Origin: a bacterium
GTDB lineage: Bacteria > Fidelibacterota > UBA2242
Direction of reading: 5' to 3'
NCBI GenBank assembly: GCA_018824205.1
Contig: JAHJGX010000185.1
Coordinates: forward strand, 1 to 34,658
Length of the DNA: 34,658 nt
The notes under the pieces are model-generated. The model had not been told where the DNA came from. It saw nothing but the letters and a program-made list of their open reading frames with translations, and ran no database searches. Shown one piece after another: positions 18,491-29,141 of this stretch. How positions within the stretch are numbered: the first letter of the stretch is position 1; each line of letters opens with the position of its first letter. Position numbers and translations under genes: made by a program.

Positions 18491-20914
18491 ATGACTAAAT
18501 GTAACTCTAGCCGATTCATCGTAATCGGCCTACTGATTTCTACGATCAACGTTTCTTCGGTACAGGCTGCGAACAACTCCCTCACCGGAAAAGTAGTTGA
18601 AAAATCCACATCGGAACCGCTGGAATTTGCCAATGTCGTTGTATTTATATCCAGCGACAGTTCCCAGGTTGCCGGCGCAACAACGGATGAATTCGGCATT
18701 TTCAAATTTTCCGGTCTTTCCGACGGTAATTATTATGCGCAAATCGGTTTTATCGGATTTTCAACACTGACCACACCCGCCTTTTCACTGAAAAACAGCG
18801 CTCTTGATCTGGGCGTCCTCAAAATCGAAATCAGCCCGATTGCACTGGGAAATGTCGAAGTAAACGCCGAAAAAGCAACTTTCAACAACTCAATCGATCG
18901 TAAAATCTACAATGTCGAACGAGATATTCTCAGTCAGACGAGTTCCGCCAGCGATCTCTTGCAAAATATTCCGTCCGTGTCTGTAGATGTGGATGGAAAC
19001 ATCAGTCTGAGAGGCGCAGAAAATGTGACGATTTTTATCAACGGTAAACCCTCCTTACTGATGCGCAAAAACAGCGCGGTGGTCCTGCAGCAGATGCCGG
19101 CAAATTCCATTGAGCGCATCGAGGTGATTACCAACCCTTCGGCAAAATACAAACCCGACGGCGTCAGCGGCATTATTAACATTGTTCTCAAAAAAGAATC
19201 CCGGCCGGGATTAAATGGAACGGTCAGCGCCAGTGCAGGCAACCAGAATCGCTATAATGCCAACACCAATTTGAACTATAAGCTGGAACGATTAAATCTG
19301 TATGGAGGCTATGCATTACGCCACCGCAACAGCCCCCGGGTTTCGACCAGTTCGAGAATCACCCGGGATTCGTCGCGCCAGGCTATCAGTTATTACGACG
19401 ACAACAGTTCATCCGGCAGCGGAGCGTTGGCACATGTCCTTAATGGTGGTTTAGACTATACGCTCAATGAAAAAAACCAGTTCGACGTTTCCGGTAATTA
19501 TTTTTACCAGGACTCCTATCGCGATCAGACATCGCATACAATTTTCCGCGACGTCATGCGGCAAATCACGACTGATTTCAATACTGACCGAACCAATAAC
19601 GAGTATGAAAAAGAATGGGAGCTCACTTCCACGTTTGAGCACAATTTTAATAAAGAAGATCATCTGCTTAATTTTGAACTCAATCACTCCGGCTACAATG
19701 AAGAGGAAGACAACCTATATGACGAGACATACACCGTTCCGGATAATTCCAATGCATTGCACCATATCCAGATTCGAAAAGGCGGGACTCTGACGGAATT
19801 GTATGCTGAATATACATATCCGATCAATGAAGAAACTGAAATTGAGGCAGGTTATGTCGGGGAATATTTGAGAGATGACATCCGATACCTGGGTGAAGAT
19901 TTCAATCAGCAGCAGAACAATTGGATTACCGACGCCAATAAAACGAACCGTTTTCTGTTTCACCAGGACATCCACGCTCTTTATGGCACATTCGGACATT
20001 CCTTTGAAGATTTTAGTTTCCTGGCAGGACTACGGGCAGAGCAGGCGTTGATTACTTCGAACCTCGTCAGTTCGGATTCAACAATTGACAATGACTATTT
20101 CAAACTGTATCCCACTCTGCATCTGACGTATCAATTCAGCGATCGTCAGGAAATCCAGCTGAATTACAGCCACCGTGTAAACCGGGCAGACAGTGACGAG
20201 CACAATCCCTTTGCCGAATACTCCGACCCCCGAAATATGGAAGCCGGGAACCCGAAAATCAAACCGGAACAAATCCATTCCGTTGAGCTTGGCTATCATT
20301 TAAAAACAGAACATTTCTCCGTTTTGCCGACTGTTTATTACCGCTATAAATATGATGCGTTTACCGAAATACGGCAGTATGTCAACGACACCACCATGCT
20401 TCGAACCCATACAAACCTCGCCAGCGATCGATCAGCCGGAGCGGAGCTCGTTGTTTCCGCCAATATCAAAAATATCCTGAACCTGAATTGGAGCGCCGAC
20501 GCCTTTTATCAGGTCATCGATGCCACTAACCTGGGTTATTCTGAGAATAAATCAACCATTTCGTGGAATACCAAATTGGCAGCGAATCTTCATTTGACCA
20601 AATCCAATCTGATCCAACTGAATGCCTATCACCGTTCCGCCCGGCTGACACCGTAAGGCAAAACTTTTCCATTGTTTCTGTTAAATTTGGGCGTCCGCCA
20701 GGATTTCTTGAATCAAAAGGCTTCCCTGATAATCTCTGTATCCGATGTATTGAATTCCCTGAAATGGACCCGCGAAATTGACACACCAATTCTGTACGAA
20801 AAATCAATGAGCAAACGAAATTCACAAATTCTCTCGATTGGATTCAGTTATCGGTTTGGTAAATCCGGCAAAAAAGAGGAAGCGGAGTTCAAATTTGAAG
20901 ATTCGATTCCGTAG
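18491..20914 (+). pseudogene. TonB-dependent receptor / outer-membrane beta-barrel (receptor 2), interrupted by TAA
   Basis: 807 codons if read through. Signal peptide, carboxypeptidase-regulatory-like domain (about 31-115), plug (about 140-235, LQNIPSVSVDVDGNISLRG) and an OMP_b-brl_3-type barrel. Codon 722 (20654-20656) is TAA inside ...ARLTP-stop-GKTFP. The frame stays open for 85 more codons and finishes the family-typical end (SDVLNSLKW, FSYRFGKSGKKEEAEFKFED). A Gln (CAA) is expected there, so one C-to-T change explains it. The 721-residue product would lack the last strands and probably not assemble. Everything else is intact, so the mutation is recent or a sequence error. It starts 4 nt after receptor 1. 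Downstream, CCGT/ACGG before TTTATTTT (about 20908-20930) is a weak terminator candidate. Confidence 0.85.
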
Positions 20915-21062
20915 GTGACGGTTTATTTTCGTATATCGACTGTTCAGCAGATTAAAATCATTCCCTAATTATCTAAGTCCAAATAAATTTTCGTCCATCA
21001 CCCGCTCATAAGATTAATCTTGTCAAGTGAGTTCAATTATAAATTAGAGGAACCACATCTCA

Positions 21063-21395
21063 GATGATGTCAGTTATTTGCCGATTATCGTCAATATATT
21101 GGCACATTGAGTAAAATGCCAAATGCCTTCAGGATCAGAAAATATCGTAATATTATCCATTGTCAAAGAATAATTCTCGACGACAAATATATATTTTATC
21201 AAAAAACATATTTTGGGGCATGGTATTTGTCAGAATGGATTACTGAGATTTGAATTGTGAAAGGAAAAATATGCGAACCAAAATTGGATTAATCCTGCTC
21301 TTTGTGATGCTTACGGCATTCGGAAAAACAGTCACCATCAGTGGATTTATGAGAGATGCTTCCAATGGTGCAACGCTGATCGGGGCTAATATCTA
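21063..21395 (+). repeat. duplicated receptor-3 leader and 5' coding end (copy A)
   Basis: Matches 28808-29141 across the intergenic leader and the first 41-42 codons of receptor 3. The 90 bp around the start (21216-21305) differ at only a few positions, while the distal leader is more diverged. Both copies contain a TTGCCGAT...ATTGGC inverted repeat (21079-21105) able to form a hairpin. Homology stops abruptly after AATATCTA. The preceding 20915-21062 shows no gene. Confidence 0.85.
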
Positions 21396-21495
21396 TGATA
21401 TAACGATAACAAAGCAGCAATTGAACAAGATTTTGCAAACAGTCACAATAGACAATCTGTTTCATGATCCAATTGACACATTATGGATAAAGTAA
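21271..21495 (+). pseudogene. truncated receptor-3 copy fused to the tail of an unknown gene
   Basis: 74 codons. Residues 1-41 (MRTKIGLILLFVMLTAFGK..., ISGFMRDASNGATLIGANIY) copy the signal peptide and start of the carboxypeptidase-regulatory-like domain of receptor 3 (29017-31302). From 21396 the sequence is unrelated: ITKQQLNKILQTVTIDNLFH and on to LWIK, then TAA. That tail is coupled to the next gene by TAATG, as a natural upstream gene would be, so it is probably the 3' end of a lost island gene joined in frame by recombination. A Shine-Dalgarno (AAAGGA) precedes ATG 21271. The product is unlikely to function. Confidence 0.8.
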
Positions 21496-22568
21496 TGAAA
21501 TTGAAAAGAGAAAAAGATCCCATTTTAATTTTTGATAATTCGACTAAATGGACTTGGTCGGCAAGAAAATTACAAAGGGAAAAATGTAATATTAGCAGTA
21601 TCACAGACAATTATACTCCAAAACCCGGAGATGTTGTTGTTGTGCAAGTATTGAAAGTCGCAAACCATACCAGAATTTACTCTTTCGACAATAAATTTGT
21701 ACGATTATACCAGGGTGATATCATTGCTGGCACATTGGGCTTCAGATATGCATCCGACGCTTTTCATGCCGATACAATTAATCTTTCAAATCTCCATCTA
21801 TTGACAAATTCAGGGTTGATTGGTACCGTTAAAAACAGGCATTTAAAGATCGGTGAACCAACCAGAGTAAAATTAATTGGAACCATTGCAGATAGGCAAA
21901 ATGGTAAAAATGTTAATTTGAAAGAAACGTTCTTTCATCCCGGCAATTTCAATTTGATTTATCCACCGGTGATTTTTGTCATTGGCTCAGGTATGAACAG
22001 TGGTAAAACCACAAGTGCAGCACGAATTGGGCGGTTATTAATTGAACGCGGTCTGTCTGTATCATTATTGAAAGTGACCGGGAGTGTTGCTTATCGCGAT
22101 CTTTTCGAATATGAAGCGACAGGGGCACAATATACGGCTGATTTCAGTGATTATGGGTTCCCATCAACTTACCTGTGTTCACAGAAAGAACTGGTTGCGT
22201 TATATTCCCGCATGCTTGAGGATACGCTTTCAATAAAACCCGATGTGGTGATTGTGGAAATTGCGGATGGCATATTACAACGTGAAACACAACTATTATT
22301 AAAATCAAACATTGCAAGATTCACCAGCATCGGGGTCATCCTGACAGCGCCTTGTGCATGCTCTGCATTGACACTGGTTGAAAAAGTAAAACAGCTGGAC
22401 TATTCACCCATTGCCGTTACAGGTTTAATTACCAATTCGCCATTATTTGTTGCCGAGTTTGCATCATACGACAATACTCCGGTGTGGGATACAAATGCGA
22501 ATCCGGATCAATGGGTTGACCGGGTAATTGGACGTTTAAAAGGCACTTCGAAATATATTATGGTCTAA
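21495..22568 (+). CDS. P-loop NTPase with unrecognised N-terminal domain
   Basis: 357 residues, no signal peptide or TM segment. The C-terminal half is a SIMIBI/dethiobiotin-synthetase/MobB-like P-loop domain: Walker A GSGMNSGKTTSA at about 164-175, Walker-B-like VVIVEIADG at about 250, and GLITNSP near the end. It recalls DUF1611-type proteins, but I cannot confirm that. The first 150 residues (GDVVVVQVLKVANHTRIY..., GLIGTVKNRH) look all-beta and are unfamiliar. ATG 21495 overlaps the preceding stop (TAATG); ATG 21483 is an alternative start. The ABC exporter starts directly after its stop, so the two form an operon. A role in making or activating something the exporter handles is an inference. 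Confidence 0.7.
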   Translation: MKLKREKDPILIFDNSTKWTWSARKLQREKCNISSITDNYTPKPGDVVVVQVLKVANHTRIYSFDNKFVRLYQGDIIAGTLGFRYASDAFHADTINLSNLHLLTNSGLIGTVKNRHLKIGEPTRVKLIGTIADRQNGKNVNLKETFFHPGNFNLIYPPVIFVIGSGMNSGKTTSAARIGRLLIERGLSVSLLKVTGSVAYRDLFEYEATGAQYTADFSDYGFPSTYLCSQKELVALYSRMLEDTLSIKPDVVIVEIADGILQRETQLLLKSNIARFTSIGVILTAPCACSALTLVEKVKQLDYSPIAVTGLITNSPLFVAEFASYDNTPVWDTNANPDQWVDRVIGRLKGTSKYIMV

Positions 22569-24377
22569 ATGCCTGAAAACAAAGCAAACAAGAATACATC
22601 CTGGCTTGCCATATTAAAGCCCTATTTAAAACCATTTTATGGAACAATAGCATTAGCAATTGTTTTTATGACCGTCGATTCTTTGCTCACGGCTTTGCGC
22701 CCCTGGCCCTTGAAAGTTATTATCGACACGGTTCTTAGCGGTCAGAATATTAAAATACCTTTTATAGCCGGATGGATTAATGATCCCGCATTAAGTAGTA
22801 CATCTGTTTTATATGCAGCCTGCATCGCAATGTTAATGATCGCGATAGGAACAGGAGCATTCTCGTACCTGTTTACCCTGCTTGTGGGAAATTTTTCACA
22901 GCGGTTTATTTTTAATTTAAAAATTACAACATTCCATCATTTACAGCGGCTTTCATTACAGTTTCATACAAACAAAAGGCTCGGGGACATAATGACCCGT
23001 TTGACCTCCGATATTAATTCTATCCAGTTGCTGACCTCCCGGGGAGCCATGTTGTTTTTAACGAATTTCTTCCTGATTGCAACACGGCTGGTCATAATGT
23101 TCTGGCTGAACTGGAAATATTCGCTTATTGCCTGTTCGGTGCTACCGTTATTATTTCTATCCATCTGGTGGCATACCGCTAAAATAAAGACAGCCTCGAG
23201 GGTCGCGCGTGCCAGCGATGGCGAAATGGCATCCATTGCGCAGGAAACCCTGGGTTCAATCCGGATTGTTAAAGGCTTAGCGCAGGAAAAAAGACAGGAT
23301 CAACTTTATGTTGATCAGGGTAAAAAGAGCCTGGCAGAATATATGGGACGTGTAGCACATCAGGCGCGTATGTCGCCCATTATTGATTTCCTGGCTGCCG
23401 TTGGACTTACGCTTGTCATGTTTTATGGAGCAAAAGGAGTAATGGCAGGGAGTTTAACAATCGGGGATATGATTGTATTCTTTTTTTATGTTTCCGGTTT
23501 TTACAGTCCCGTACGAGCCATGTCAAGACAATTTGCTAATTTTTCAAATGGAATAGCAGGCGCTGAACGGGTGGCAGAGGTATTGGCAAAAGATATATTT
23601 ATTAAAAAAGATAAAAATGTAATAAGCGCACCCTGTTTTAAAGGTATGATTGAATTTAAAAATGTTTCATTTGAATATGAACCGGGGCAAAATGTATTAA
23701 AAGATATTTCATTAACTATCCAGCCCGGTGAGCATATCGCAATTATTGGAGCCACCGGCGCCGGTAAAAGTACCATCGCCAGCTTACTCTTACGGTTTTA
23801 TGATCCCGTGAAGGGAGCTGTACTGATCGATGGAAATGATATCCGGCATTATTTGCTTGAATCTCTGCGCAAACAAATAGGACTTATTTTACAGGATTCC
23901 TACTTATTAGCCGGAACAATTCGGGAGAATATTACTTTCGGCTGCGCCGATATTCCTGATGAAGAACAAATAATCAGAGCGGCAAAAGCAGCCCGCGCGC
24001 ACGAGTTTATTTGCAAATTGCCACGTGGATATGATGATCATGTTTCTGAAGGTGGCGCGAACCTTTCCGGCGGGCAGCGTCAAAGGATAGCCATTGCCCG
24101 GGCTATTATCCGGGATGTCCCGATACTCTTGCTTGATGAACCTACGAGCAACCTGGACAATATGTTCGAAGCAGCGGTTCTCGATACGTTAAAAAATATA
24201 TCCTACAAGCCTACTATTATTATAATAACTCATTCATTGCAAGCCGCAAATATGTCCGATACCATTGTAGTTGTTGAGAATGGTGAAATAATCGAATATG
24301 GTTCGCCGGATGAACTGGGTAATAATGGAGACAGGTTTAAAAAATACATTGAAGCAGGGCTACTGAAAAAGAGATAA
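22569..24377 (+). CDS. ABC exporter half-transporter (MsbA/lipid-exporter type)
   Basis: 602 residues. An N-terminal type IV exporter membrane domain with six helices (about 20-320) is followed by an ATPase domain with Walker A GATGAGKS (about 394-401), Q-loop LILQDSY, signature LSGGQ (about 498), Walker B ILLLDEPTSNLD and switch His in ITHS. It should work as a homodimer exporting a lipid, peptide or polymer intermediate across the inner membrane. There is no N-terminal peptidase C39 domain, so a bacteriocin-type processing exporter is unlikely. The ATG follows the P-loop gene's TAA with no gap. Its place with an outer-membrane protein and a CapA fusion suggests envelope polymer or peptide export. 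Confidence 0.92.
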   Translation: MPENKANKNTSWLAILKPYLKPFYGTIALAIVFMTVDSLLTALRPWPLKVIIDTVLSGQNIKIPFIAGWINDPALSSTSVLYAACIAMLMIAIGTGAFSYLFTLLVGNFSQRFIFNLKITTFHHLQRLSLQFHTNKRLGDIMTRLTSDINSIQLLTSRGAMLFLTNFFLIATRLVIMFWLNWKYSLIACSVLPLLFLSIWWHTAKIKTASRVARASDGEMASIAQETLGSIRIVKGLAQEKRQDQLYVDQGKKSLAEYMGRVAHQARMSPIIDFLAAVGLTLVMFYGAKGVMAGSLTIGDMIVFFFYVSGFYSPVRAMSRQFANFSNGIAGAERVAEVLAKDIFIKKDKNVISAPCFKGMIEFKNVSFEYEPGQNVLKDISLTIQPGEHIAIIGATGAGKSTIASLLLRFYDPVKGAVLIDGNDIRHYLLESLRKQIGLILQDSYLLAGTIRENITFGCADIPDEEQIIRAAKAARAHEFICKLPRGYDDHVSEGGANLSGGQRQRIAIARAIIRDVPILLLDEPTSNLDNMFEAAVLDTLKNISYKPTIIIITHSLQAANMSDTIVVVENGEIIEYGSPDELGNNGDRFKKYIEAGLLKKR

Positions 24378-24413: not shown

Positions 24414-25193
24414 ATGATATACAAACCCAGATTAAATCACATGGTTGACAAGCAAATGAAAACAGATTTTACAGGACCGTTGATAGCATTATCGTTATCA
24501 ATTTGTTTTTGGATTTTAGTTCTGTCAAGCCCCGCCTTTTCACAGAATGATGGACAAGACAATAATACAGGTACACCTTCAGTAACATCCGGTACGGCAT
24601 TGATTTTACAACCGGGTGTCGGTTTGCGGTATAATCTAAATAAAAAGATCGGGTTGTATCAGGATTTTAGAACCTACTTTAACAAAAGTAATCCGGTAAA
24701 AAACTTTGAGGAACTGAGTTTTGGCGCCAGATATAATCTCGGAAAAATTAAGAAATTCCATTTTTCTACAACGATAGGTTACTTGCTTTCGCTCGATAAT
24801 AATTATAAAATTCATGAATACCGGCCCAAAATTTATTTTACAACCGGTTATCACCTGAAAAAAGTCGGATTTGAATTCCGAAACCGGTTTGAATACCGTA
24901 TTAAAACAGGAGAGAATTCAGGCAGCTCATTGCGGTACCGGCCAAGGTTCAAGGTGGGATTAAGGTATAATTTTCATCAATTTCAACTTTCACCCTACAT
25001 TTATAATGAGTTATTTTTCGGGGAAAATGGATTTAGTCAGCATCGGATCAAGCTGGCATTATCGGTTAAATATCATGATTTTCGTTTTACCGCAGGTAAT
25101 TTGTTCAAAATAAAACCGGGCCAGGGATTGGTTGAAAACAGGGTGTCTTTGGATGTTAGTTATACCATCCCATCCTCAAAAAAGAATAAATAG
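24414..25193 (+). CDS. small outer-membrane beta-barrel protein (DUF2490-like)
   Basis: 259 residues. A long signal peptide (hydrophobic 22-43, cut after AFSQ) is followed by a short low-complexity linker and repeated amphipathic strands (GVGLRYNLNKKIGLYQDFRTYF, FRNRFEYRIKTG, LRYRPRFKVGLRYNF), resembling DUF2490-type barrels. The start ATG 24414 has AGGA 9 nt upstream. It lies 36 bp after the ABC exporter and is likely in its operon, so it may be the outer-membrane exit or an envelope partner of the exporter. It ends 18 bp before the left end of the IS element. Confidence 0.75.
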   Translation: MIYKPRLNHMVDKQMKTDFTGPLIALSLSICFWILVLSSPAFSQNDGQDNNTGTPSVTSGTALILQPGVGLRYNLNKKIGLYQDFRTYFNKSNPVKNFEELSFGARYNLGKIKKFHFSTTIGYLLSLDNNYKIHEYRPKIYFTTGYHLKKVGFEFRNRFEYRIKTGENSGSSLRYRPRFKVGLRYNFHQFQLSPYIYNELFFGENGFSQHRIKLALSVKYHDFRFTAGNLFKIKPGQGLVENRVSLDVSYTIPSSKKNK

Positions 25194-25211: not shown

Positions 25212-25971
25212 GTTAACTCCGGATCCTTTATTTTTATCTTGGGTCATGACTATTTTAGCATAGAAAAAGAGATGCTAACTTATTGTCATGAAACAAATTA
25301 ACAGGTACAAAAAACGATCACGCATTTCTGAGTACAAATTCAGGTAAATTATCAGGCACTTTTCTCTGGATCTGACTGCCTCCCAAATCGCTAAATTGAC
25401 GAATATAAATCGAAATACGATCAATACATATTTGATACAGATAAGAAAAAAGATTGCTGAATACTGTGAACAACAATCACCATTTGCTGCTGAAATCGAA
25501 GTTGATGAAAGCTATTTCGGTGCCAGGAGAGTTAAAGGTGTCAGAGGTCGTGGAGCTAGAGGAAAAACCATTGTGTTTGGTATTTTTCAACGTAACAGAA
25601 AGGTCTACACTGAGATCGTTCCAGACTGCAAAAGCAAAACACTTCGAGCAATTATTCGAGGGAAAGTTAGTGTGGAAAGCATCATTCATACGGATACTTG
25701 GCGCGGATATTCCGGGCTGGTAGATATTGGTTACCAAAAACATTATCGCGTCAAACATGGAATCAACGAATTTGTAAATGGAAAATCTCACATCAACGGT
25801 ATAGAAAGCTTTTGGGCGTTTGCAAAAACCAGACTTAGTAAATTCAGAGGCCTGAACAAAAATACTTTTTACCTGCATTTGAAAGAAACGGAGTTTAGAT
25901 TTAACCATAGAAATGATCGGAATATTTTGAACAAACTTATTCTCAAAATCATCAAAGAAAATCCGCTTAAC
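25212..25971 (+). mobile_element. IS1595-family insertion sequence
   Basis: The boundaries are set by a short imperfect inverted repeat: GTTAACTCCGGAT at 25212 and the complement of AATCCGCTTAAC ending at 25971 (GTTAAGCGGATT). No convincing 8-bp target duplication is seen, so one end may be wrong or lost. It carries one transposase gene with a nonsense codon. It separates the outer-membrane protein gene from the peptidase-CapA gene. Confidence 0.6.
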
Positions 25972-25974: not shown

Positions 25975-26032
25975 TCTATACCCTTTATCTTTGAGATAAA
26001 CGTATCTTTTTATAGAAAACAATGTTCATTGC

Positions 26033-28471
26033 ATGATAGCCATCAGTTCTGATAAAAAACAAAAACAAGTTTTAGGGCAGGTTTACCTTTGGACCCCTGA
26101 TGCGTCTTTACCTTTGGGTGGTTCTATCCAGAAATCAATTGTATCTCTTTCATGGCTTAATGGCTCTTTTAATTTAGAAAATCATTTGTCAAGCCCGTAT
26201 GCAGTCATTAAAAATGCCGGAACCATCAACCTGCCGGATGAACATTCAGGATCCATAATTCCAACTCCACTTGGTGATGCCCAACCTGATTCAGAGGGCA
26301 ATTTCATTTTCGAGCCTTTTAATGGCGGCGGAAGAATGGATAAAGAAGCCTTGGTAGATGAATTTAGAAGGTATAAAAATATTCAGGCAGCGCGGTTCGG
26401 AGAAGTGAATACTTTTTACCACATCAATAAAATCGCATCATATATTGATGAACTTCTGAACGAACTGGGAGAACGTCCGTTACCACGCCTGAAAGTGGTT
26501 GTGAATGCGCATCCTGCGATTTACACACAGAACGGTAAAAGGGATGGCTGCCGGGGACTAAAAAGTGGGAAATGCTTGCCATTCCAGGGCGGGCATTACC
26601 GGTCGTCTTCCAGAAATCTGCCGGATACGCCAGAATTTCATCCAATTTCACCCGATGGAGAGATTCATCTTGGTCCGGGCTGGCGGCTGACCGAATTTGG
26701 GGCATTGCCGGAATTCGCCAAATGTAAATATCGCTGCAATGCATCTCATAATGCAGGAATTATTTACCACGAATACGGGCATCACGTAACAAGACATACA
26801 GCCGATTTTATGGCTAACCGTTTTCGGGCTCCTCACAGGCAAAGCAACCAGAAATCGGATCTGGATGAAGCCATAAGTGATTATTGGGCGGCTACAATGC
26901 TGGATTGTCCCCACATTTGGACATGGCACCGGAAACACACCAGGAATGAAATTCATCCCCGAAGTCTGGCTTCCATAAAGACCATGACTGCTTTTGATTC
27001 AGGGAGCAATGCCGATCCGCATTTGAACGGGACAATCTATGGCGCGGCTCTTTGGGATATGCGCAATGAATTTTGTGAAATGTACTCTGATGGATCCCGA
27101 AAAATGGATTTGATCGTTTTGAAATCCCTCATTTTAATGGGACAATTACAGGATTCAGAATTCAACCCGACGACAACCGGCGCCCGTAAATGCCGCTCTG
27201 GATTTGGTACCGGCAGAGCTTCTTTGGCAGAGGCTGATAAAATCTGTTATGATGGCAGGCACTCCGAAATTATTACAAAATGTTTTTCACAAAGAGGAAT
27301 AGATAGTAAAAATCTGAAAAGGTCTATTCCTTGCAGAGATTTAAATGCGGGACACATTCCAACCATTAACGTGCCGGACCGGAACATAGAAAAATCGGTC
27401 ATACATATTTTAAAACGAGACGAGCATGCTATTATTCCTAAAACGAATGAAATATTATCGCGTCAGGAACTTGAAACGAAATTAGGAACAAATAAAACCG
27501 GTCCTTTTTCATTAACGGTGGTTGGCGATATTATGCTCGGTTCAAGGATGAATAAACTCCTTCATAAATTCGGCCCTGAATATCCGTTTTATTCTGTTTA
27601 TCCTATTTTAAGAAGGTCGAGCATTGTTTTAGGCAATCTGGAAGGCCCTTTAGCAAAGATAACTAAGAAACAAGAACGTAATTATAGTTACAGAGTAAAT
27701 CCTAAAAATGCCCGAATACTTCGGCGCGCTGGATTTAATGTAGTGACTATGGCCAACAATCATATATTGGATTGCGGCCGTCAGGGGGTTCTTGAAACGT
27801 TCTCCGCCCTCAAAAAACATGGGATCAGGTACATTGGCGCCGGAGAAAATGAGGAAAACGCGCACGTTCCGGCAATTTTGCAGGCAGGTAAATATAAGAT
27901 TGGCTTATTGGGATATTATTGGAATCGCCGGACATCGGCCCGGGGCTCAAAACCGGGTAGTGCCATAGATACTCAGGAACATGTCGCCAACGATATCCAT
28001 GACTTACGTCCCTATGTCGATAGGGTGGTTGTAACTGTGCATTGGGGTGTTCCTTACGAACGATATCCATCAGAAGAGGACCGAGAGAAAGCTCATTTTG
28101 CCGTCGACTGTGGTGCGGATATCGTCATTGGCCATCACCCGCACGTTGTTCAGCCTTTTGAGATGTATAAAAACCGACCCATATTTTACAGCATCGGGAA
28201 CTTTGCATTCGGCTCGGGAAACAGTAAAGCTGAATCAATAATGCTGGCGATTATTTTTCAGGAAACCTATACTGAACTTACAATTTTTCCAGCCTATATA
28301 AAAAATCGTGACCATCGTATCAACTATCAACCCCGAATAATAACTGGCAATGCCGCCTTTGAGAGTATTAACCGATTGAAAAAAATATCCGGAACATCAG
28401 CAGATTTTATTTATTTTGAGAATGATACAGGGAAAATAATATCGTCTCAATGCCAGGGGGAGGTAAAATGA
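26033..28471 (+). CDS. zinc-metallopeptidase-like domain fused to CapA (PGA capsule) domain
   Basis: 812 residues in two parts. The N-terminal part (about 1-430) carries a gluzincin-like site: H246-E-Y-G-H250 with a likely third ligand E279 in LDEAISDYWA, then GTIYGAALWDMRNE, as in M4/M36-type peptidases. The C-terminal part (about 492-790) is a CapA/PgsA-like metallophosphatase-fold domain: GDIMLG (499-504), NLEGP (535-539), ANNH (574-577), HWG (670-672), GHHPH (700-704), SIGNF. CapA proteins take part in poly-gamma-glutamate synthesis or anchoring and normally carry an N-terminal membrane anchor. None is visible here, and the ORF opens only 60 bp after the IS, so the N-terminus may have been lost. 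No good Shine-Dalgarno precedes ATG 26033. Its last codons overlap a copied receptor-1 leader. Confidence 0.8.
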   Translation: MIAISSDKKQKQVLGQVYLWTPDASLPLGGSIQKSIVSLSWLNGSFNLENHLSSPYAVIKNAGTINLPDEHSGSIIPTPLGDAQPDSEGNFIFEPFNGGGRMDKEALVDEFRRYKNIQAARFGEVNTFYHINKIASYIDELLNELGERPLPRLKVVVNAHPAIYTQNGKRDGCRGLKSGKCLPFQGGHYRSSSRNLPDTPEFHPISPDGEIHLGPGWRLTEFGALPEFAKCKYRCNASHNAGIIYHEYGHHVTRHTADFMANRFRAPHRQSNQKSDLDEAISDYWAATMLDCPHIWTWHRKHTRNEIHPRSLASIKTMTAFDSGSNADPHLNGTIYGAALWDMRNEFCEMYSDGSRKMDLIVLKSLILMGQLQDSEFNPTTTGARKCRSGFGTGRASLAEADKICYDGRHSEIITKCFSQRGIDSKNLKRSIPCRDLNAGHIPTINVPDRNIEKSVIHILKRDEHAIIPKTNEILSRQELETKLGTNKTGPFSLTVVGDIMLGSRMNKLLHKFGPEYPFYSVYPILRRSSIVLGNLEGPLAKITKKQERNYSYRVNPKNARILRRAGFNVVTMANNHILDCGRQGVLETFSALKKHGIRYIGAGENEENAHVPAILQAGKYKIGLLGYYWNRRTSARGSKPGSAIDTQEHVANDIHDLRPYVDRVVVTVHWGVPYERYPSEEDREKAHFAVDCGADIVIGHHPHVVQPFEMYKNRPIFYSIGNFAFGSGNSKAESIMLAIIFQETYTELTIFPAYIKNRDHRINYQPRIITGNAAFESINRLKKISGTSADFIYFENDTGKIISSQCQGEVK

Positions 28472-28620
28472 AATTATTCAACCTGTTTTTAGTGCTTAGA
28501 GTAATCAGTTTCAGCAATCTGCAAACGATTCCTGATGGGCAGGGTGGCTATATTTATCCTCATGATGATAGGAACTGGTTTAGTATAGTACCGATTATCG
28601 GATGTAGCTGGGAATTTTAG
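28468..28620 (+). pseudogene. receptor-1 copy collapsed to 50 codons by internal deletion
   Basis: It reads MKLFNLFLVLRVISFSNLQ joined to TIPDGQGGYIYPHDDRNWF... and ...SWEF then TAG. The first 19 residues match residues 1-19 of receptor 1 (16105-18486) and the last 31 match its residues 763-793; about 2.2 kb between is missing. The break falls at short similarity (GCAAGC / GCAGAC in receptor 1), and the frame is kept. The receptor-1 Shine-Dalgarno region is also copied (CCAGGGGGAGGTAAAATG), so it would be translated, overlapping the CapA stop by 4 nt. A 50-residue product with a signal-like start and a barrel-end tail has no evident function. Confidence 0.85.
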
Positions 28621-28807
28621 CCCTATAGATACAGGTATCATTTATAATTAGTTTCTAAATTCATCTATTTATATTTGGATATCTGGTTTACAGAAGACCA
28701 AAATTCTTCACGTAATGTCGATATCCCGATAAATCCACACTCAATATCTGCTTATAAGATAGATATTCATAGAATAGGTCTCCTCACTATTCAAAAGATC
28801 CCATCGC

Positions 28808-29141
28808 GGATCGTGTTAAATATTTGCCGATAATCGTCAGCTTATTGGCGCATTGAGTAACGCACCGGATACTGAGAGGATTGGCAAATACGGTATTATT
28901 ATTCTTTGGAAAAGAATACTTCCCGACGACAAATGAATAATTCACCCGAAATATATTTTTAGGGCATGGTATTTGTCAGAATGGATTACTGAGATTTGAA
29001 TCGTGAAAGGAAAATTATGCGAACCAAAATTGGATTAATCCTGCTCTTTGTAACGCTTACGGCATTCGGAAAAACAGTAACTATCAGTGGATTTATGAGA
29101 GACGCATCCAGCGGTGAAGCACTGATCGGAGCAAATATCTA
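28808..29141 (+). repeat. duplicated receptor-3 leader and 5' coding end (copy B)
   Basis: Counterpart of 21063-21395, here in front of the intact receptor 3. It includes the TTGCCGATAA...TTATTGGC inverted repeat (28824-28851) and the near-identical block from 28962 to the start codon. The interval 28621-28807 before it holds only a short tail of receptor-1 homology and no gene that I can see. Confidence 0.85.

Follow-up and report, generated by a model that had tools for sequence, protein, structure and literature searches.

Gene organization of the locus

The window, by which we mean the whole stretch of 34,658 nucleotides that was analyzed, contains at positions 26033–28471 a single open frame on the plus strand that starts with ATG and encodes a protein of 812 aa, in which an M36-like peptidase and a CapA (PGA_cap) domain are fused. 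The genes and features of the locus are as follows.

21056–21355, plus strand: left copy of a 300-nt direct repeat, which contains the 5′ end of a TonB-dependent receptor gene
21483–22568, plus strand: P-loop enzyme, 361 aa, core gene of the cassette
22569–24377, plus strand: MsbA-like ABC exporter with the transmembrane domain and the ATPase in one chain, 602 aa, core gene of the cassette
24414–25193, plus strand: DUF2490 outer-membrane beta-barrel protein with a hydrophobic N-terminal segment
25241–25983, plus strand: IS1595-family insertion sequence (IS) between the barrel gene and the fusion gene, absent from the cassettes of relatives
26033–28471, plus strand: M36-like peptidase–CapA fusion, 812 aa (peptidase-like part, about residues 1–425; linker, about residues 425–455; CapA N-terminal extension and domain, about residues 455–805)
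26768–26782, plus strand: HEYGH codons (H246–H250), predicted zinc-binding and catalytic motif, invariant in 15 of 15 homologues
26867–26869, plus strand: codon of E279, predicted third zinc ligand, invariant
27512–28213, plus strand: Pfam match of the PGA_cap (CapA) domain
28802–29101, plus strand: right copy of the 300-nt direct repeat

The P-loop enzyme, the ABC exporter, the DUF2490 barrel protein and the fusion are encoded in this order on the plus strand, with gaps of 0–49 nt apart from the IS. The IS is bounded by an 8-bp target duplication, TTTATCTT, at 25233–25240 and 25984–25991 and has imperfect terminal repeats (GGGTCATGACT and GGGTATAGACT), and a stop codon upstream of 25396 apparently breaks its transposase frame. 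That this element had truncated the fusion gene was ruled out, as the homologues share the start position and the IS is intergenic. It lies about 50 bp ahead of the start codon of the fusion and may affect its expression.

The two 300-nt direct repeats, which are 82% identical and hold the 5′ ends of TonB-dependent receptor genes, flank the cassette, and remnants of such genes were found on both of its sides, at 20657–21495 and 28471–29101. The flanks thus look as if the cassette had been inserted into, or duplicated with, a receptor array. The G+C content is lower at the left end of the cassette region, and the GC skew shifts. A search with PADLOC for defence systems gave no match for the P-loop enzyme or the fusion, and only generic ATPase matches for the ABC protein.

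Fused and split homologues

By one scan of about 85,000 genomes, we obtained 14 homologues spanning both domains and, hence, 15 loci with that of the window. The taxonomic assignments given below are public-record labels, most of the genomes being metagenome-assembled ones (MAGs).

Window: fused, own phylum
L004: fused, Bacteroidota, 72% identity to the window
L012: fused, Ignavibacteriota
L005: fused, Chloroflexota MAG
L006: fused, Planctomycetota
L008, L010, L011 and L016: fused, Alphaproteobacteria (Pseudomonadota)
L007, L009, L013 and L014: two adjacent genes, Acidobacteria gp2
L015: two adjacent genes, Proteobacteria MAG
L017: three genes (peptidase, ABC, CapA), Actinomycetota

The single-frame combination of a gluzincin-type peptidase with CapA, which the earlier note had read from the sequence, was borne out by a Pfam search, in which both Peptidase_M36 and PGA_cap exceeded their cut-offs, and by its conservation, eight further fused loci having been found beside that of the window. 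The note had also considered that the halves might prove to be separate genes in relatives. This was the case in six loci, where they are co-directional and, in L017, separated by the ABC gene; it was not so in the nine fused loci, and the HEYGH motif is invariant throughout. Fusion is, therefore, a stable state of a co-operating pair. A sequencing or frame artefact at the junction was ruled out by the presence of the fusion in nine loci. The junction is genuine in that an N-terminal extension of the CapA domain, with the pattern IP...D.L....L, is conserved across the fused forms and the split forms (L007–L015). Comparison of the fusion genes of the window and L004 gave a dN of 0.19 and a dS of about 1.6, which is near saturation, resulting in a dN/dS of about 0.12; the fused gene is, as judged from these substitution rates, under purifying selection.

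Of 245 genomes of the window's phylum that were searched, one contained the full-length peptidase, and another gave a partial and weak match (E 2e-10). Searches of three other groups, comprising 297, 294 and 299 genomes, yielded it at full length in one genome each, so that the overall frequency is about one genome per 300 searched. In each of these four group searches, the sole full-length positive was a genome already known. We also looked for the peptidase on plasmids and in viruses and found none in either. Its rare and patchy occurrence across several phyla indicates horizontal transfer and points to the spread of the cassette by this route.

The conserved cassette consists of the P-loop enzyme, which is dethiobiotin-synthetase-like, the ABC exporter and the fusion. 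The ABC gene was present in all 15 loci and the P-loop gene in 14, the exception being L017, the contig of which begins within the peptidase gene. The gene order of the window, with no IS, is shared by L004 and L012, and these three are the only loci with a DUF2490 gene in the cassette. In most of the others, the P-loop gene is followed by the fusion gene, or its halves, and then the ABC gene, with frequent overlaps of 1–4 nt; L005 has an additional gene ahead of the ABC gene, and L007 has an intact ABC gene also downstream. Trees built for the P-loop enzyme and for the fusion agree in their supported groups. In the papers searched, which covered few subscription journals, neither the M36–CapA architecture nor the whole cassette was found to be described.

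Directly upstream of the cassette, a gene for a CobW-family GTPase was observed in L008 and L016 (about 7.8–8.9 kb; two Bradyrhizobium strains). It is possible that this protein serves as a metal chaperone for the metalloenzyme.

The peptidase half

The Pfam Peptidase_M36 profile matched residues 234–423 of the fusion with 27–29 bits against a cut-off of 23.3 bits (E 3e-6), and it matched all 15 homologues, with a best E of 9e-11. In a search of PDB sequences, a profile of the peptidase domain retrieved fungal M36 proteases (E 2e-5). The AlphaFold model of the fusion, which had a mean pLDDT of 77, matched the M36 protease 7qfy (E 7e-9) and also MslH, an epimerase with the CapA fold; its pTM was 0.53, so the relative placement of the domains is unsure. 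The zinc site proposed earlier, consisting of HEYGH and a downstream Glu, was supported by the alignment, in which the family motifs HEYGH, DE-DY and DPHLNGT correspond to HEYTH, GEGWGDF and VHSIGT of M36, and H246, E247, H250, E279, D283 and H330 are invariant in all 15 homologues. The suspicion that HEYGH might not be conserved was thus dispelled.

The peptidase half, accordingly, resembles M36 fungalysin (PF02128; PDB 7qfy, 7z6t and 4k90) in the fold and in the active-site pattern of HExxH with Glu and His. It differs in having neither the secretion signal nor the inhibitory propeptide that are the norm in that family, the homologues all beginning at the same position, and also in being predicted to be cytosolic, in being joined to CapA and in carrying an extra conserved motif, HEYGHH.xRHTADF.

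The CapA half and its relation to MslH

The PGA_cap profile (PF09587) matched residues 494–727 with 244 bits, far above the cut-off of 27 (E 1.6e-72). All the motifs that had led to the proposal of a complete CapA domain (GDIMLG, NLEGP, ANNH, HWG and GHHPH) were found, and D499, E537, N576, H577, D580, H670 and G672 are invariant. It is conceivable that one half is non-catalytic, the peptidase being a degenerate binding domain with CapA alone catalytic, or vice versa, since the similarity to M36 is low beyond the active site and the propeptide and signal are absent. We consider this very unlikely, however, because HEYGH, E279, D283 and H330 have stayed invariant in 15 of 15 homologues over several phyla and the above residues of CapA are invariant too.

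The nearest solved structure to the CapA half is that of MslH (PDB 8gq9), which was also retrieved with this half by the profile search of PDB sequences (E 2e-27). MslH is the epimerase of the C-terminal Trp of a lasso peptide (NF038314), and its metal ligands are E44, N87, H259 and H261 (PMC10406935). In the alignment, its N87, H88, D91, H259 and H295 have counterparts in the CapA half, and for D11 and E44 the motifs agree, whereas H261 is replaced by the invariant Gly672, as in the CapA motif HWG. From this replacement of a metal ligand, ordinary phosphoesterase-like chemistry would be at least as likely as epimerization for this domain.

The likeness to MslH raises the question of whether the cassette matures a ribosomally synthesized and post-translationally modified peptide (RiPP), in which case the peptidase would remove a leader or trim the core, the CapA domain would epimerize as MslH does, the P-loop enzyme would activate a carboxylate and the ABC protein would export the product of a precursor encoded remotely. 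A cytosolic peptidase together with an ABC exporter is a common layout in RiPP systems and is what the cassette has, and two of the P-loop homologues weakly matched TIGR04066, an NCBIfam family of peptide maturation (best E 7e-4). However, no conserved small open reading frame that could be a precursor-peptide gene was found across clades in the cassettes or within 2.5 kb of them, and the cassette genes abut or overlap. Furthermore, no RRE or leader-binding domain was detected with Pfam, no genes for lasso peptides or other RiPPs were recognized near the fusion or elsewhere in the window, and the score of the fusion for NF038314 was only 76 bits against a cut-off of 700. Together with the substitution of H261, these results make RiPP maturation unlikely, though worth keeping in mind.

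The P-loop enzyme and its relatives

The 361-aa P-loop protein was modelled with a pLDDT of 87 as a beta-rich N-terminal domain followed by a dethiobiotin-synthetase-like P-loop domain, the latter with structural matches to dethiobiotin synthetase, HypB, SRP GTPases and CTP synthase (Foldseek of the protein: 3of5, E 5e-7). Profile matches, to CbiA, MobB and DUF1611, were weak, and the window's protein was under every curated cut-off. It thus shares the P-loop fold with dethiobiotin synthetase, MobB and DUF1611 enzymes but has the extra N-terminal beta domain and forms a distinct subfamily. DUF1611 presumably includes the D-glutamate N-acetyltransferase DgcN, and dgcN has been linked to D-acidic amino acids.

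Relatives of the P-loop enzyme are also encoded outside the cassette near an ABC exporter gene, often together with an alpha/beta hydrolase gene, as on Rhodobacterales plasmids and in Hyphomicrobiales, and in one genome of the Bacteroidota group, the gene after the relative encodes an isoaspartyl-peptidase/asparaginase. Since the P-loop enzyme and ABC exporter recur in the company of various amide or ester hydrolases, the hydrolase may serve to tailor the product or the substrate of the P-loop enzyme.

Another relative, on a plasmid of Microvirga ossetica, is 39% identical to the Bradyrhizobium form. At that locus (L030:1144–4158), CapA is fused to a cyanophycin-synthetase-like N-domain and an ATP-grasp domain, near an ABC/HlyD pair and the P-loop relative. 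The arrangement is like ours in that CapA is joined to a peptide-bond enzyme and that the locus also has an ABC exporter gene and a P-loop relative; it differs in that the partner makes amide bonds, there is no M36 domain, and the strand is opposite to that of the P-loop gene. A further relative lies on a Priestia megaterium plasmid (L029:6718–15418) in an apparent phosphonopeptide cluster with PEP mutase, a split ThDP enzyme, two ATP-grasp ligases, an M20 peptidase and an LLM flavoenzyme, and with IS6 elements on both sides. At three Bradyrhizobium loci (L051, L053 and L054; about 9–15 kb), a conserved basic open reading frame of 71–75 aa lies just upstream of the P-loop relative, and there are also genes for a methyltransferase and for a protein that is about 1115 aa long and has Cys pairs at its N-terminus.

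The cassette could serve detoxification or self-resistance instead of biosynthesis, the P-loop enzyme and the hydrolases modifying a toxic peptide-like or amino-acid-mimic compound for export by the ABC protein. This would be in line with a small, patchy and horizontally moving cassette that lacks scaffold-building genes, with the change of hydrolases beside the same P-loop/ABC pair and with the position of one P-loop relative within a phosphonate cluster. Such a role is nevertheless rather improbable, because three or four enzymes kept together over many phyla exceed the need of most resistance genes, no resistance family scored above its cut-off, and an NCBIfam scan of the exporter gave two tetracycline-efflux models, both far below their cut-offs.

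In Bacteroidota and Planctomycetota, a distant P-loop subfamily is common; it is encoded between argG and argC in 16 of the 22 loci examined and next to argG alone in two more (L108–L117, L121, L122 and L124–L129; about 6 kb from each start), and after it the operon continues with argC and then argD, argF and argB. In Bacteroides, the starting point of arginine synthesis is an N-acylglutamate that a different enzyme makes (PMC7311316), and a guess of glutamate N-acylation fits the slot that the subfamily occupies. Its members are thus candidates for an enzyme of the arginine pathway, perhaps, at a guess, an N-acylglutamate synthase. As they are distant, at about 25–34% identity, a role involving glutamate transfers weakly to the cassette enzyme.

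Localization and the question of a capsule

Neither the fusion nor the split CapA genes encode a signal peptide or membrane segment, as judged by hydropathy, the maximum for a 19-residue stretch over the first 60 aa of the fusion being 0.82. CapC (PF14102) is absent from the genome of the window, which is 94% complete, with Bacillus subtilis as a positive control, and the fusion is the sole PGA_cap match in that genome. There is no CapB/PgsB ligase among the annotated genes of the window, and no ligase/CapC pair was recognized adjoining the homologous loci.

These results bear on the idea of the earlier note that the protein cuts and handles a peptide-like polymer, for example by releasing or anchoring chains, which was taken here as a poly-gamma-glutamate capsule enzyme at the membrane, with CapA in the classical role and a peptidase attached. 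The PGA_cap domain is complete with all its motifs, the same five as in classical CapA/PgsA (PF09587), and the relatives of the P-loop enzyme in arginine operons hint at glutamate-type chemistry. In contrast to classical CapA/PgsA, however, the fusion lacks a membrane anchor, has a peptidase attached or encoded alongside, occurs in a genome without CapC and has as partners a P-loop enzyme and, in all loci, an exporter of another kind. With no signal or anchor, no CapC and no precursor-peptide gene found, a capsule role is very unlikely. The simplest reading, given the lack of a signal, of CapC and of a second PGA_cap protein, is that the fusion would be cytosolic and would take part in processing that is coupled to ABC-mediated export.

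Proposed function of the cassette

Taken together, we propose that the mobile cassette makes or modifies, and exports, a small metabolite of the amino-acid or peptide type, the fusion being a cytosolic metalloenzyme with two active sites, one in a zinc-dependent M36-like amidase/peptidase and the other in the calcineurin-like CapA domain. We give this reading a probability of about one half. We infer the substrate, the order of the steps, the chemistry and the role in export to be as follows. The P-loop enzyme would activate or acylate an amino acid, perhaps a glutamate-like one, and the fused peptidase and CapA domains would act successively on the resulting amide-linked compound, one by hydrolysis and the other by a further reaction that depends on a metal, for example the cleavage of a phosphoester or a proton transfer. 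The product would then leave the cell through the ABC exporter, and the DUF2490 barrel may pass it across the outer membrane in Bacteroidota-type Gram-negatives. Since no scaffold-building enzyme is encoded in the cassette, pure biosynthesis would have to start from a common metabolite.

A bolder version, which we put forward tentatively and hold to be less probable, is that the cassette represents an undescribed, horizontally transferred pathway for an exported metabolite derived from an amino acid or glutamate, with a new ligase or acyltransferase subfamily of P-loop enzymes and with M36–CapA, in which CapA would carry out a new hydrolysis-coupled reaction. The parts are of known kinds, and the cassette is conserved, uncharacterized and mobile, with an unusual bifunctional metalloenzyme.

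The usual reading of a CapA protein is that of a capsule gene product. MslH, which has the CapA fold, is an epimerase, however, and the present family of peptidase–CapA proteins, predicted to be cytosolic and encoded alongside an exporter, is also unlike that reading. The P-loop partner, in turn, draws attention to an uncharacterized protein of Bacteroidota and Planctomycetota that is encoded in their arginine operons. If the proposed role in a new metabolite is true, CapA annotations in many genomes would need to be re-examined.
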